The notes under the pieces are model-generated. The model was not told where the DNA came from. It did not search any database and worked only from the letters and a program-made list of their open reading frames with translations. The position numbers were made by a program, and so were the translations under genes. Shown in pieces: positions 12,607-16,843 of a stretch of 64,000 nucleotides of DNA. Numbering within the stretch: position 1 is the first letter of the stretch; each line of letters opens with the position of its first letter. This DNA is from Paenalcaligenes suwonensis (lineage in GTDB: Bacteria > Pseudomonadota > Gammaproteobacteria > Burkholderiales > Burkholderiaceae_B), in assembly GCF_011290505.1 (NCBI RefSeq), contig NZ_JAANPV010000009.1, positions 62,001 to 126,000 of the forward strand. Reading direction: 5' to 3'.

Positions 12607-12636
12607 TTGCCCGTACCAGCCTAATGTCTTTATAAT
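12607..12636 (+). promoter_or_regulatory. Promoter of the tRNA-Arg(CCU) gene
   Basis: TTGCCC at 12607-12612 and a perfect TATAAT at 12631-12636 with an 18-bp spacer; the tRNA 5' end follows 10 bp later, a usual distance for a stable-RNA promoter. Confidence 0.65.
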
Positions 12637-12682
12637 TTTGGGCTGTGGCTCCATAGTTAAATGGATATAACTTTCCCCTCCT

Positions 12683-12897
12683 AAACAAAATTGGGCACAC
12701 CTAGGCGAAAGCCTTGATGTGAATGCGCTTAAATTCGGTGAAACCCCTGTGCAAACGCGGCAATACCGAGCGAAGCCTCGCCAGAGGAACGTGTAGAGAC
12801 TCGACAGGCGCAGCCTACGGCACAACGTGCTATGGCTAAGATAGAGTCCAGACTACAAACCTGTGCAATGCAGGGCAGTGAAAACTGTAGTGGTACG
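12683..12897 (+). ncRNA. Group I self-splicing intron (IC3-like) in the tRNA anticodon loop
   Basis: 215 nt between U36 and A37 of the anticodon loop. A GGG guide at 12693-12695 can pair with the exon bases CCU, leaving the expected G-U at the 5' splice site; the last intron base is G (12897). Conserved core strings are present: AAATTCGGTGAAACC (12731-12745, P/J4-5 region), GTGTAGAGACTCGACAGG (12791-12808, R/P7 region) and AAGATAGAGTCC (12838-12849, S/P7-J8/7). GAAA tetraloops cap a stem at 12703-12714 and another at 12876-12887, matching L2 and L9. The core resembles, from memory, the 205-nt Azoarcus tRNA-Ile intron, and tRNA-Arg(CCU) of Agrobacterium carries one at the comparable place. No endonuclease gene is inside. 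Confidence 0.92.
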
Positions 12898-12920
12898 AAG
12901 GGAAGATTACAGGTTCGATT

Positions 12921-12936
12921 CCTGTTGGGGCCGCCA
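12921..12936 (+). other. attL: 3' end of tRNA-Arg(CCU)
   Basis: CCTGTTGGGGCCGCCA, the last part of the T arm and acceptor of the tRNA. The segment GGGCCGCCA recurs exactly at the far end of the island. Integrases of the P4 family typically use tRNA 3' ends and restore the gene on integration. Confidence 0.8.
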
Positions 12937-12970
12937 TAACGCCATACGGTAAAATGCGTTAAAGTTAACA

Positions 12971-13004
12971 AAACCCGCGCCAGATAATGGTTAGCGGGTT
13001 TTTT
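12971..13004 (+). terminator. Rho-independent terminator after the tRNA
   Basis: AAACCCGC pairs with GCGGGTTT across a 15-nt loop and is followed by a T run. It lies 35 bp beyond the mature tRNA end, already on the island side of attL, so the island would supply the present terminator. Confidence 0.8.
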
Positions 13005-13039
13005 GTTGGTTGTTAATGTACGGTAGTGTGCATTGACAT

Positions 13040-13104
13040 ATACCGTCATGCGACGGTATTTTAGACGGTATCTGATAAATTGCTCGGAAAAATACCGTCA
13101 TGCG
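13040..13104 (+). promoter_or_regulatory. ATACCGTC/GACGGTAT box cluster upstream of int
   Basis: ATACCGTC-ATGC-GACGGTAT at 13040-13059 is a perfect 8-bp inverted repeat; a further GACGGTAT starts 12 bp on at 13064, and ATACCGTCATGCG recurs at 13092-13104, covering the int start codon. The portion 13046-13077 is repeated with three mismatches at 21850-21881. They may be integrase arm sites, an int operator, or both. Confidence 0.65.
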
Positions 13105-14302
13105 TCCTAAACTTAGCGCTGTTGCTGTGAGGCAGGCCAAGCCAGAGAGTAAGCCGTACAAGTTAACTGATGGGTCTGGTTTGTATTTGCTTGTGAATAG
13201 TATGGGCAAATACTGGAGATACGATTATCGATTCCAAGGTAAAAGGAAAACTCTGTCATATGGGGTGTTTCCCACCATTACCCTTGAGGCGGCACGACAA
13301 GCACATCAGGACGCCAAACGTACCTTAGCGGATGGCATAGACCCAGCAGAGCAGAAAAAACGAGCTGATGGACGTAAGAGCTTTGCTGCGGTGGCGCGAC
13401 TCTGGTTTGAGCATTGGAAAACAGATAAGGCTGATAGTACGGCTAGAGTTGTGTGGCGGGGATTAGAGGTAAACATACTGCCATTTATAGGCAACGTGTT
13501 GATTGATGAGTTAACAGCAGCACAAGTGCGGGACTGTGTGAAGCGAATAGAGGCGCGCGGCGCGTCTGAGGTGGCCAAGCGACAGTTACAGCGATGCAGC
13601 CAGATAGCGCGTTTTGGTGTGGCACATGACTATGCTGAACGTAATCCTGTTAGTGACGTAAATCCAAGCGACATATTAAAGCCAAGAAAGAAACAAAATT
13701 ACGCTCGTGTCGACTCTAAGGAATTACCCGTTTTATTGCAGGCCATCGATACGTATCAAGGGCAAGAGCATACACGGCTTGCTTTGCAGTTAATGGCGCT
13801 CACCTTTGTGCGCACGTCGGAACTCATCAAAGCAAAATGGCCAGAGTTTGATTTACAGGCGCATCGATGGGAGATACCAGCCGAGCGCATGAAAATGCGC
13901 ACTCCTCATATGGTGCCTTTGAGTAAGCAGGCTGTAGAGGTAATACAGAGGCTGCAGGCTATTTCCATGAGTGATAGCTATGTGTTCCCTTCGGATAATC
14001 GTAGAGGTGGCCACATGAGCAATAACACCATTCTGTATGCCCTGTATCGTATGGGGTATAGAAGCCGTATGACTGGCCACGGGTTCCGAGGTGTGGCATC
14101 AACGTTGCTGCATGAAAAGGGTTTTGCTCATGAGCACATAGAGCTACAGCTTGCCCACCAAGAGCGCGATGAGGTGAGCGCATCGTATAACCACGCCCTG
14201 TATCTTGAACCGCGCAAAAAGATGATGCAGTGGTGGGGGGATTACTTGGATGGGCTACGCAAGGGGAACCTACTTGATTTCCCTGTGAAGAAAATAGGGT
14301 AA
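13100..14302 (+). CDS. int: P4-type tyrosine integrase of the island
   Basis: A 400-residue site-specific recombinase. The N-terminal 90 residues are the arm-binding DUF4102 domain (LTDGSGLYLLVNSMGKYWRY, SYGVFPTITLEAARQA), followed by a core-binding helical domain (about 100-200) and the catalytic domain. Catalytic residues visible are Arg238 in FVRTSEL, His327 and Arg330 in GHGFRG, His353 in LAHQ and the probable nucleophile Tyr363 in SYNHALYL. The gene reads away from the tRNA, 164 bp from its end, as expected of islands that use a tRNA attachment site. The ATG at 13100 lies within one of the ATACCGTC boxes, which suggests that box occupancy could affect its expression. Confidence 0.95.
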   Translation: MRPKLSAVAVRQAKPESKPYKLTDGSGLYLLVNSMGKYWRYDYRFQGKRKTLSYGVFPTITLEAARQAHQDAKRTLADGIDPAEQKKRADGRKSFAAVARLWFEHWKTDKADSTARVVWRGLEVNILPFIGNVLIDELTAAQVRDCVKRIEARGASEVAKRQLQRCSQIARFGVAHDYAERNPVSDVNPSDILKPRKKQNYARVDSKELPVLLQAIDTYQGQEHTRLALQLMALTFVRTSELIKAKWPEFDLQAHRWEIPAERMKMRTPHMVPLSKQAVEVIQRLQAISMSDSYVFPSDNRRGGHMSNNTILYALYRMGYRSRMTGHGFRGVASTLLHEKGFAHEHIELQLAHQERDEVSASYNHALYLEPRKKMMQWWGDYLDGLRKGNLLDFPVKKIG

Positions 14303-14404
14303 CGGTTAACGCTGGCATCTAGTCCGACGGGACGAAAAGGCGGAAGTCCACCGCTCTGATGCTGGCTACTTATTCGTATGGACAGCTACTAGGACGGGTA
14401 GTGG

Positions 14405-15187
14405 ATGAAGCATAAGTATTACAGGATAAAAGAGTATCTAGATGGAAGAGAGGCTATTCAGTATTTGGCTTATTTAACTGGTGTGGAACTTGGTCGAAGT
14501 GAGTTTCTCTCTTTCATAGGAGAAGAGCTTTTTCCTTACCTTCAATTTATAGATATTCCCGAATATGGATTTCTAAATGAGGTTGCAGGTGAGTTATGTG
14601 GAGTGAACGGTAGTTTGAGGGCAGTGGGTCTACAGAAAATATGCTCACGATTGAGTCCACTTTTTGAAAGTGATCTGGGTGACAGTCTTGAATTGCCACG
14701 AAGGGGGGACTGTTACTTTCCTGATGTTTTAGAGTTAGAGGGTAAGATTACTTATCAGGAAGGAAAAGAGTTAGTTACAGATAGTTGTGTGTGGAATGTG
14801 AACGGTTATGAACTATTGCGGGCAGATGGACTGTTTTTCAAGACAAAGGATATAGAGTTATTGGCTGACAGGATGAATGCGGAAAATGCAGGGGAGTTGA
14901 GACGAGATGAGGAGGTCGTAGCTCTCAAGGCTGAAGTGGAGAAGTTAAGGGCAGCATTATCTGGTGGAGGTGGAATAAACCGCAGAAAAGAAGAAACCTT
15001 ATACAGAATCATCATAGGTATGGCTCGAGGTGGATACGGTTATGATTTTTATGCGGAAAGAAATAGCGCAACTAACCGTATTCTGAAAGACATAAATGAG
15101 CGCAGAGAAGAAATAAGTATAGAGGCGTTACGGATACACCTAAACGCCGCTAGAGAGTATTTGCCTAGAAAGCCAGAAAAGACGTAG
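14405..15187 (+). CDS. Island protein of unknown function with coiled coil
   Basis: 260 residues, not recognised as a characterised family. The first 150 residues are mixed, with an unusually AT-rich coding sequence compared with int. Residues about 170-190 (EEVVALKAEVEKLRAAL) form a short coiled coil followed by a glycine linker. The C-terminal part (ETLYRIIIGMARGGYGYDF..., then KDINERREEISIEALRIHLNAAREYLP) recalls a C-terminal module found in many phage- and island-encoded hypothetical proteins, where a GYGYDP-type motif precedes a predicted helix-turn-helix-like segment; this is from memory. No signal peptide or membrane segment. It follows int by 102 bp. A DNA-contacting accessory role would be a guess. 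Confidence 0.7.
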   Translation: MKHKYYRIKEYLDGREAIQYLAYLTGVELGRSEFLSFIGEELFPYLQFIDIPEYGFLNEVAGELCGVNGSLRAVGLQKICSRLSPLFESDLGDSLELPRRGDCYFPDVLELEGKITYQEGKELVTDSCVWNVNGYELLRADGLFFKTKDIELLADRMNAENAGELRRDEEVVALKAEVEKLRAALSGGGGINRRKEETLYRIIIGMARGGYGYDFYAERNSATNRILKDINERREEISIEALRIHLNAAREYLPRKPEKT

Positions 15188-15251
15188 AGCTAGCAGTAAG
15201 TACTGTTAGATGAGCGGTACTTACTGCACATAAAGACTGACTAAAAATACA

Positions 15252-15286
15252 GTATCTCCATTGTTTTTTAATAACCGTGGAGATAC
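15252..15286 (+). promoter_or_regulatory. Inverted repeat overlapping the alpA ribosome-binding site
   Basis: GTATCTCCA (15252-15260) and TGGAGATAC (15278-15286) are a perfect 9-bp inverted repeat with a 17-nt T/A-rich loop. The right arm contains the GGAG Shine-Dalgarno of alpA, whose ATG is 4 bp further. As RNA it would hide the ribosome-binding site; as DNA it could be an operator. Confidence 0.6.
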
Positions 15287-15290
15287 AGAA

Positions 15291-15491
15291 ATGTCTACCA
15301 AAGCCTTTCAACGTATGCCTGCCGTGCAAGAGCGAGCAGGGGGCGTATCCAGAACCACTATTTACGAGTGGGTGAAAAAAGGGCAATTCCCTAAGCCAGT
15401 AAAAATAGGTGGCCGCGCTATTGCTTGGCGGGTAAGCGACCTAGAAAAATGGGCAGAAAACCCTCAGGGTTGGGCTGAGGGGGGCGTGTAA
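15291..15491 (+). CDS. alpA: AlpA-like helix-turn-helix regulator
   Basis: 66 residues (ATG at 15291, GGAG 7 nt upstream). The sequence GGVSRTTIYEWVKKGQFPKPVKIGGRAIAWRVSDLEKWA is the standard AlpA/MerR-like winged helix: the turn around SRTTIYEWV, the wing FPKPVKIG and the closing W-R-x-S-D-x-x-x-W. In P4-like elements and CP4-57, AlpA activates excision genes. Here it is the first gene of a tight cluster: its TAA overlaps the ATG of the next gene (TAATG), and the third gene overlaps no further than 0-1 bp. An inverted repeat covers its ribosome-binding site. Confidence 0.9.
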   Translation: MSTKAFQRMPAVQERAGGVSRTTIYEWVKKGQFPKPVKIGGRAIAWRVSDLEKWAENPQGWAEGGV

Positions 15492-15874
15492 TGGATCCGC
15501 AAAAAAGAAACGCCCCCATCACGAGAAGCAATGAGAGCGCTGCAAATATCACTGTTGGCCAGCATACCATAAAACCATTTCAGGGCACACGTAACGTCAA
15601 TGAGTTACGGGCGCTGGATGTGCTCCTCAAAGCAGAAGGCAAGCCAGTAAGCCGTAAGGATTTAGATCGATTATGTGGGGCTGCTAATAGCCCTGAAATC
15701 GTGCGCCGGCTACGTGAAAAAGGTCTGCCTATAAAGTGCGATATGCAGGAGACGGTGAACCGCTTTGGTGAATCGGTTAAGGCAGGGTATTACAGTCTTA
15801 CCCCTTATGCTATGGCTAAGTTGTGCTTGTGGCTTGATATTGTTGCCTCCAGAGTAGGCAGGAGGTCCGCATGA
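15491..15874 (+). CDS. Small island protein, predicted winged-helix
   Basis: 127 residues, no firm family. The middle (NELRALDVLLKAEGKPVSRKDLDRLCGAANSPEIVRRLREKGLPI) has the look of a winged helix: a first helix, a second after PVSRKDLD, and a recognition-like helix SPEIVRRLREKG, followed by a strand pair. This type of protein often sits between alpA and replication or accessory genes in P4-like islands. It is translationally coupled to alpA by a TAATG overlap, and its own TGA is immediately followed by the next ATG. Confidence 0.7.
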   Translation: MDPQKRNAPITRSNESAANITVGQHTIKPFQGTRNVNELRALDVLLKAEGKPVSRKDLDRLCGAANSPEIVRRLREKGLPIKCDMQETVNRFGESVKAGYYSLTPYAMAKLCLWLDIVASRVGRRSA

Positions 15875-16276
15875 ATGACACGACGCAAACGCTCGGATTA
15901 CCCCATCGGGGGGCGCTTTTGTGCTTTGCCTCACAAGGTTATGGATTGCGCGGCATTTGTTAGCTTGTCGGGTGCTGCTACTCGTCTGCTGCTGGAAATA
16001 CTACGCACCTACAACGGCAACAACAATGGTCAGATGCACGTCACTCTAGGTGTTCTAAAGAGTCGCGGTTGGAATAGTGGTGATGTATTTACACGCGCTA
16101 GGCAGGAGTTGCAGGACAAGGGGTTTATCCAAATGACCCGCCTACCTCTTATGCCTAGACGTGGGGCATGGTTTGGCCTGACATGGCGGCCATTGGACTA
16201 CACGCCAGAAATGGACTTAAAGCCGGTGGACTTCCTAAAAGATGCGTTTTTGCTGTGGGAGAGGAAAACAAAATAA
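15875..16276 (+). CDS. Small island protein, helix-turn-helix-like, possible replication or control protein
   Basis: 133 residues. The core ALPHKVMDCAAFVSLSGAATRLLLEILRTYNGNNNGQMHVTLGVLKSRGWNS followed by ARQELQDKGFIQMTRLP reads like the winged-helix part of plasmid/island DNA-binding proteins of the 'replication initiator-like' or helix-turn-helix type: a helix through S-x-x-A-x-x-L-L-L-E-I, then a glycine turn and a recognition helix leading to G-F-I. A strong GGAGG lies 9 bp before the ATG. The palindrome array begins one base after its stop codon, making this protein, or AlpA, a candidate ligand. The family assignment is inference. Confidence 0.65.
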   Translation: MTRRKRSDYPIGGRFCALPHKVMDCAAFVSLSGAATRLLLEILRTYNGNNNGQMHVTLGVLKSRGWNSGDVFTRARQELQDKGFIQMTRLPLMPRRGAWFGLTWRPLDYTPEMDLKPVDFLKDAFLLWERKTK

Positions 16277-16277
16277 C

Positions 16278-16405
16278 TGACCGGAATACGGTCATATAAA
16301 GCCCTCCATTTGACCGGAATACGGTTATACGAAGTGCTCCATGTGACCGGAATCCGGTCAAATACAGGCCCAAAACAGCGTTTTCATATGACCGTATTCC
16401 GGTCA
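16278..16405. repeat. Array of four 17-bp palindromes (TGACCGGAATACGGTCA)
   Basis: Copies at 16278-16294 (exact), 16311-16327 (one change), 16344-16360 (ATC for ATA, so fully CCGGAATCCGG-like) and 16389-16405 (exact reverse complement of copy 1). Each is TGACCG-5 nt-CGGTCA. The first three start exactly 33 bp apart, about three helical turns, and the fourth 45 bp further, placing the sites on one face. This looks like a cooperative operator or an iteron set rather than a CRISPR. Confidence 0.9.
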
Positions 16406-16843
16406 CTTTATATATATAGCCATCTACTCCCCCATTTATGGGGGATTTATTAGGGGTTAGAAAGCAGCAAATAGGGATGTATAGTGCAAACGGTTTTTTG
16501 CAAAAAGTTGCACCGTTTACTGTAATGGGGACCAAAAAGGTAAAGCATGACTGCTATTTGATTAGCGGACATTGATGCTGCTTCGTAGTAGTGTATGTTA
16601 GCTTTTGTTAGCATTACCGTGGGTTTTCGGAGGCCATAAAAAAGACTATCTCCATTCCCTTGGTGCGCCAAAATAGGGTGCGGGTAGTTTTTAGGGTTGG
16701 ATAAAACCTCACATCTACCGCACAGCTTTGCTGATGGGCATAATTGATTGGCCCGTTATCTAAGCGTTGCGTAACGGTTATGTCGTATCATAGCCAGCAT
16801 CTATCATTATTGATTTGCATCTTTATTTGCTGCTGCCTTGCTT
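16406..16843. other. Non-coding leader between the palindrome array and the restriction gene
   Basis: 438 bp with no convincing gene. It starts AT-rich (TTTATATATATA), then has TCCCCCAT-TT-ATGGGGGA (16428-16445, perfect 8-bp arms) and AAACGGT...ACCGTTT (16488-16494 with 16512-16518) enclosing TTTTTGCAAAAA. GTTAGC is repeated 10 bp apart near 16588. These features fit a control or origin-like region; no clear promoter for the large gene was identified. Confidence 0.5.

Follow-up and report, generated by a model that had tools for sequence, protein, structure and literature searches.

The group I intron of the Azoarcus pre-tRNA-Ile(CAU) comes from a betaproteobacterium, interrupts the anticodon loop, is similar in length to the intron described here and carries GAAA at L2 and L9. 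Group I introns reportedly also interrupt the tRNA-Arg(CCU) of alphaproteobacteria, Agrobacterium included, in work said to be by Paquin in 1999. For one such intron, that of Bartonella bacilliformis tRNA-Arg(CCU) (BbgpI), the available extract of PMC7717549 gives splicing in vivo and self-splicing in vitro; the same extract presents the tRNA-Arg(CCU) intron family as established in alphaproteobacteria and the split Bartonella gene, like the one considered below, as unannotated. Extracts of PMC4033280 list tRNA group I introns for cyanobacteria and for alpha- and betaproteobacteria, and an extract of PMC8450103 reports tRNA-Ile2 introns of Acidovorax and Burkholderia that were noted by hand. 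The 'group I introns' of 22-49 nt given for other cyanobacterial tRNAs, including Arg(ACG), in an extract of PMC5733544 are far shorter than the present ones.

The window analysed here is a stretch of 64,000 nucleotides from Paenalcaligenes suwonensis. With a high degree of confidence it can be said to hold a tRNA-Arg(CCU) gene in which a small group I intron without an endonuclease follows directly on the anticodon and which would be spliced to a functional tRNA (Table 1). The intron lies between U36 and A37, and the exons when joined are recognised by ARAGORN as a tRNA-Arg(cct) of 75 nt, which aligns over 75/75 nt and with 96% identity to the uninterrupted genes of the congeners G001, G006 and G007. 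The coordinates and the insert length of 215 nt given in a preliminary description of this DNA proved exact. When introns are allowed, ARAGORN agrees with them, finding in the 4 kb around the gene one tRNA with the anticodon cct and the intron i(37,215); in its default mode it found no tRNA in the window. Eleven further betaproteobacterial tRNA-Arg(CCU) genes are split in the same way, and over these twelve the boundaries chosen by ARAGORN in intron mode are the same as ours in ten, the other two (L005 and L035) being given the same tRNA with a different placing of the intron. The exons are intact in all twelve, and substitutions in the acceptor stem compensate one another; a pseudogene or an assembly artefact was ruled out since exons and intron are kept in 12 genomes. 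A scan for terminators found none.

Table 1. Features of the split tRNA-Arg(CCU) gene and the adjoining island, in positions of the window
Feature	Position	Strand	Basis
Sigma-70-like promoter TTGCCC-18-TATAAT, upstream of the tRNA gene	12607..12636	+	consensus match only; shuffles mean 0.6
tRNA-Arg(CCU) gene, split	12647-12936	+	ARAGORN intron mode, exon pairing
5' exon, 36 nt, ending in anticodon C34 C35 U36	12647..12682	+	
Group I intron, 215 nt, terminal G	12683..12897	+	Rfam, ARAGORN, covariation
Internal guide GGG, pairing with CCU 12680-12682 (P1); P1 extended by A12683-A12684 with U12691-U12692	12693..12695	+	
P2 hairpin, GAAA loop 12707-12710 (L2)	12696..12721	+	
P3 (12724-12728/12808-12812) around P4 (12735-12739/12765-12769), P5 and P6/P6a	12724..12812	+	
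P7 (12798-12802/12844-12848), crossing P3; P8 12813-12836	12798..12848	+	
P9 (12853-12856/12890-12893); P9b hairpin 12876-12887, GAAA loop 12880-12883 (L9b)	12853..12893	+	
3' exon, 39 nt, A37 through encoded CCA	12898..12936	+	
attL, last 15 nt of the tRNA gene	12922..12936	+	repeat
Tyrosine integrase (Arm-DNA-bind_3, Phage_integrase)	13100..14302	+	domains
Type ISP restriction-modification enzyme, 1644 aa, cargo	16838..21772	+	
attR, copy of the tRNA 3' end minus one G (14/15, one gap)	21936..21949	+	at synteny resumption

The Rfam model Intron_gpI matches the window intron over the full length of the model with 41.7 bits (E = 9.4e-9). The model search that had been proposed as a check thus returns a group I intron, with a score under the gathering score of 50, which is a threshold of detection and not a defining property. 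None of the 12 betaproteobacterial introns, the present one included, reaches that score, and for L006, L033, L037 and L039 there was no Intron_gpI match at E 0.001. The expectation that standard predictors miss the gene was borne out for the two that were tried, the default mode of ARAGORN and the Rfam gathering score each finding 0/12 of the betaproteobacterial introns. A match to GP20-b in the Rfam search (E 0.73) was put down to chance. No endonuclease frame fits within 215 nt, in keeping with the absence claimed at the outset; an open reading frame on the minus strand that overlaps the intron (12729-13049) is mechanical and not an endonuclease gene. The claim that the intron is one of the smallest did not hold, 215 nt being ordinary among the 12 betaproteobacterial introns, this one included, which measure 204-250 nt. 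The intron may resemble those of subgroup IC3.

The guide GGG, the terminal G and the two GAAA loops, in L2 and L9b, are all present as they had been described. The guide pairs with C34, C35 and U36, which places a U.G pair at the 5' splice site, and the CCU before the intron, its pairing with GGG and the G at the intron end are common to 12/12 betaproteobacterial introns. A secondary structure of 73 pairs, comprising the tRNA arms and P1-P9, was drawn from the window and scored on the 12 sequences, in which 95.1% of the cells are paired compared with 89.4% in shuffles (0/500 as high), a measure that benefits from the use of the window as template. Double changes in the other rows are less affected by this: both sides change at 21/73 pairs, in 51 cells, with 0/500 shuffles as high on either count, and these pairs include members of P2, P3, P4, P6a, P7, P8 and P9b. 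Sliding the partner strand lowers the pairing to 30-43%. The number of further pair types (36 compared with 32.0 in shuffles, 25/500 as high) is the weakest of the measures. In the core helices P3, P4, P6, P7 and P8, 87.5-100% of the cells are paired, with compensatory changes. P2 is 69.4% paired, its outer three pairs forming in 12/12 and its inner pairs, as written, being poor, one of them forming in 1/12; the third P5 pair fails in 3/12, one of which is the window intron. The fold energy of the window intron is no better than that of shuffles (z -1.15). The minimum-energy fold contains P7 and the centroid contains P3, which is the expected outcome for two helices that cross. Taken as a whole, the reading of the preliminary description, a group I intron in the anticodon loop of tRNA-Arg(CCU), is confirmed.

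The pre-tRNA would be transcribed as one RNA, in which the intron is expected, with the support of the covariation, to fold so that the GGG guide holds the anticodon CCU. Following the group I mechanism and the alphaproteobacterial counterpart, guanosine would attack after U36 and the freed U36 would in turn attack after the terminal G, joining U36 to A37 in what should be a functional tRNA reading AGG. By analogy with that counterpart the window intron very probably splices itself out. The genome (3.54 Mb in 28 contigs, with the window in contig C10) has 49 other tRNAs, all of whose anticodons were read, and its other arginine tRNA genes are UCU (two), ACG (two) and CCG (one). A second intact tRNA-Arg(CCU), which the preliminary description had named as a reason for doubt, was found neither among these 49 anticodons nor in a search of the 28 contigs with the joined tRNA, and because no other copy was found, the cell would have a CCU isoacceptor only if this gene is spliced.

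The intron is patchy within the genus, where its presence in relatives had been suggested as a check. Of 11 genomes, four have it (G000, G005, G009 and G010), five have an uninterrupted gene (G001, G002, G003, G006 and G007) and in two (G004 and G008) no tRNA-Arg(CCU) gene was found. G000, G001, G005 and G006 all have the gene on the far side of one and the same amidase region, with two extra genes in between in G000, so that the locus is probably orthologous across these four. In a tree of the amidase from 10 genomes the carrier G005 falls among non-carriers, which implies repeated loss or separate gain of the intron, and in a tree of 105 introns (see below) the terminal branch of the G005 intron is longer than that of any other of the 12 betaproteobacterial ones. 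G005 also has a second, uninterrupted tRNA-Arg(CCU) (L231, 1667-1741) beside its split copy, and G001 has two uninterrupted copies, the second being L232 (944-1018). The near flanks of these second copies are alike and a frame read by eye as HNH-like lies near that of G005, for which reasons both may be seated on prophages.

Introns of the type matched by the model are carried by 107 of 268 genomes of the family, at least 12 of them in tRNA-Arg(CCU); in the genus g4, 43 genomes have intron matches and five loci were classified. A common 3' junction pattern is seen in ten records, from Candidimonas (4), Paenalcaligenes (2) and others, the same junction being found also in Alcaligenes, Paralcaligenes, Mesopusillimonas and one Alcaligenaceae bacterium. 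Candidimonas, Paenalcaligenes, Alcaligenes, Paralcaligenes and Mesopusillimonas are genera of the Alcaligenaceae. Two further introns (L227 and L149), read by eye, belong to genomes of different families within the order.

An integrative island with an integrase and a restriction enzyme, which is absent from the preliminary description, is attached at the 3' exon. Synteny with the island-free genome G010 breaks off at 12937, immediately downstream of the tRNA, and is restored at 21949. The intervening ~9 kb (12937-21949) encodes the integrase and the type ISP enzyme, together with three small frames for which Pfam gave no match. The attR copy is the best match to the tRNA end in the ~70 kb scanned downstream (score 23, next 20), and elsewhere in the genome there is no copy of the last 23 nt of the tRNA with two mismatches or fewer. 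For its attachment site the integrase has taken the final 15 nt of this exon without disrupting it, so that the docking spares the intron and both splice sites. A 28-bp near-repeat (93%) lies just inside both ends of the island, at 13046-13073 and 21850-21877, and perhaps represents binding sites of the integrase; as candidate island ends the two copies were ruled out, the break in synteny pointing to 12937 and ~21948. Integrases ~38% identical to that of the window also adjoin the tRNA-Arg(CCU) genes of G219, which is split, and G025, which is uninterrupted.

Could the intron have travelled with, or belong to, this island? The two abut, the island starting at the very base after the tRNA, and the gene beside the integrase of G219 likewise bears an intron. 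It is, however, extremely improbable, since the split gene of G010, 96% identical, has no island and therefore marks the intron as independent of it, while G025 has an integrase next to an uninterrupted gene and the repeat is confined to the final 15 nt of the 3' exon. A different account would have the intron decayed and unable to splice and the tRNA gene silent, with AGG read by tRNA-Arg(UCU). The two tRNA-Arg(UCU) genes, which may partly cover AGG, would allow for this, and G005 pairs its intron-bearing copy with an uninterrupted one; one P5 pair, moreover, is broken in the window. Against this, the other 72 of the 73 written pairs are standard in the window, many with a compensated change among the relatives, the exons are unbroken in 12/12 and no other copy was found in the genome of the window, so that decay seems very unlikely and a gene that is spliced to a functional tRNA remains the reading that we adopt.

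To place the intron among its relatives, 110 loci were examined by their exons and 106 were assigned to a tRNA; none could be assigned for L022, L115 and L149, L116 was spurious, and the weak, partial loci L114 and L117 had been omitted beforehand. L149, L227 and L219 were read by eye, and a first brute-force classification of 80 loci was noisy and was discarded. The 106 comprise Leu(UAA) 47, Leu(CAA) 22, Arg(CCU) 21, Ser(UGA) nine, Ile(CAU) five, Thr(UGU) one and another Arg one, so that the related introns occupy seven tRNA identities. The 21 in Arg(CCU) are the 12 betaproteobacterial introns and nine that come from a different class within the phylum and are treated as alphaproteobacterial. 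The U before the intron and the G at its end are partly built into this set because the classification rewards them. ARAGORN gives the assigned label for the joined exons in 106/106, partly by construction and with Ile(CAU) named Met(cat); choosing its own boundaries in intron mode it agrees in 92/106, including 37/47 for Leu(UAA), 20/21 for Arg(CCU) and 2/4 for Ile(CAU) at 33, the other Arg being labelled differently. In its default mode it finds nothing for 105/106 of the split genes. That other Arg, L129 (G638), had been assigned as Arg(ACG) at 33, and this was replaced by Arg(UCU), the preferred reading of the intron mode; it has a GGG guide and apparently an extended P1 loop. In the open-access literature that was searched, with most subscription journals outside it, there was no report of Ser(UGA), Thr(UGU), Leu(CAA) or Arg(UCU) as hosts of such introns.

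Several of these loci differ from the general pattern. All 22 Leu(CAA) introns (L068, L072, L074 and 19 more) have C and not U before the 5' splice site, seemingly opposite a G in the guide. Four tRNA-Ile(CAU) introns (L017, L090, L098 and L148) lie between 33 and 34, unlike that of L071 at 36/37, and are 246-252 nt long, their 5' part being longer; for two of the four the intron mode of ARAGORN returns the assigned tRNA. On the conjugative plasmid pCTX-M3 (NC_004464.2), a tRNA-Leu(UAA) with a group I intron between its halves (L021, 2886-3184) lies near aac(3)-IId and has no feature in the PLSDB table, which is itself incomplete. The core of the window intron is matched at 60-80% by 1255 plasmid records, of which two were inspected, L021 and L022, the latter with its 3' part cut off. 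The 735-kb genome of an uncultured phage (LR756501.1) has, near 190325-190464, a sequence that on inspection by eye looks like a tRNA-Leu(UAA) interrupted at 34/35 by a group I intron (L219; R1, 116.6 bits); the available extract of a 2014 review (PMC3984707) has phage introns as then known in protein genes only. Three phage stretches of similar core (L220, L221 and L222) lie between two pieces annotated as DNA maturase B, between two annotated as capsid protein, and behind a tape measure gene, in the last case with an HNH gene farther on.

In the tree of 105 introns the Leu(CAA), betaproteobacterial Arg, Ser and alphaproteobacterial Arg introns each fall on one side of a branch, and the Leu(UAA) and Ile introns do not. 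The alphaproteobacterial Arg introns group there with alphaproteobacterial Leu(UAA) introns (100/92). In a core tree of 71 rows the betaproteobacterial Arg and the Ser(UGA) introns are joined (96/95). They are not together in the free trees of the 105-intron set and of a third tree; forcing them together costs 3.42 log units in the 105-intron set (p-AU 0.445) and gains 2.26 log units in the third tree (p-AU 0.558), and is rejected in neither. The third tree, which places L227 among the Ser introns and L149 elsewhere, resolves little because the alphaproteobacterial Arg set is itself not one clade in it (2 changes).

Whether the two sets of tRNA-Arg(CCU) introns are of one descent bears on how such elements spread. 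The nine alphaproteobacterial loci have the same 36/37 site and the same GGG guide as the betaproteobacterial ones, and a joint clade is never rejected (p-AU 0.378 in the 105-intron set, 0.0925 in the 71-row core and 0.294 in the third tree), which would suit a single lineage passed by horizontal transfer between cognate sites rather than separate invasions. In the free trees, however, the two stand apart, each with the different partner named above, and P6 distinguishes them, being GAGCG with ACGTG in 12/12 betaproteobacterial and GAGCC with AGGTG in 9/9 alphaproteobacterial introns; a single lineage in Arg(CCU) is possible, although we would not call it probable. Equally tentative is the reading in which small group I introns without an endonuclease are transferred as RNA from one anticodon loop to another, a single lineage having entered, within the Proteobacteria, at least seven tRNA identities (Leu UAA, Leu CAA, Arg CCU, Arg UCU, Ser UGA, Thr UGU and Ile CAU) with its guide changed each time, and Arg(CCU) having been invaded separately in alpha- and betaproteobacteria.

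Default annotation would drop the split tRNA gene, so that an isoacceptor which the genome does encode would appear to be missing. With introns of this type in so many genomes of the family, and nearly all of the assigned split genes missed by the default mode of ARAGORN, the same omission may affect many related genomes. One orthologous locus with and without the intron within a genus, together with introns in several anticodon loops, makes this set material for the study of spread without an endonuclease, and the docked island shows that integration at a tRNA gene remains possible when the gene is split.

To judge from its sequence, the window intron belongs to a known kind of element in a host group for which an earlier report was not found, the open-access literature searched, with most subscription journals outside it, holding none of betaproteobacterial tRNA-Arg(CCU) introns. 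It shares with the alphaproteobacterial intron of Agrobacterium and Bartonella the same tRNA and, in the nine loci of that type, the site and the guide, and differs from it in the class of its host, in P6 and in its place in the free trees, a joint clade not being rejected. With the Azoarcus intron it has in common the host class, the site in the loop, the length and the GAAA loops; there, however, the host is tRNA-Ile(CAU), and the Ile intron at 36/37 (L071) does not group with the betaproteobacterial Arg introns. The introns at 34/35 of tRNA-Ser(UGA) in related genomes (L007, L008, L012, L023, L028, L040, L041, L063 and L110) are its sisters in the 71-row core tree, a kinship that is not firm, and differ in tRNA, splice site and guide. 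The island resembles those that tyrosine integrases place at the 3' ends of tRNA genes in its adjoining integrase, its short direct repeat and the empty site in a relative, and is distinguished from them by a host tRNA gene that is split by an intron, with the repeat lying wholly within the 3' exon.
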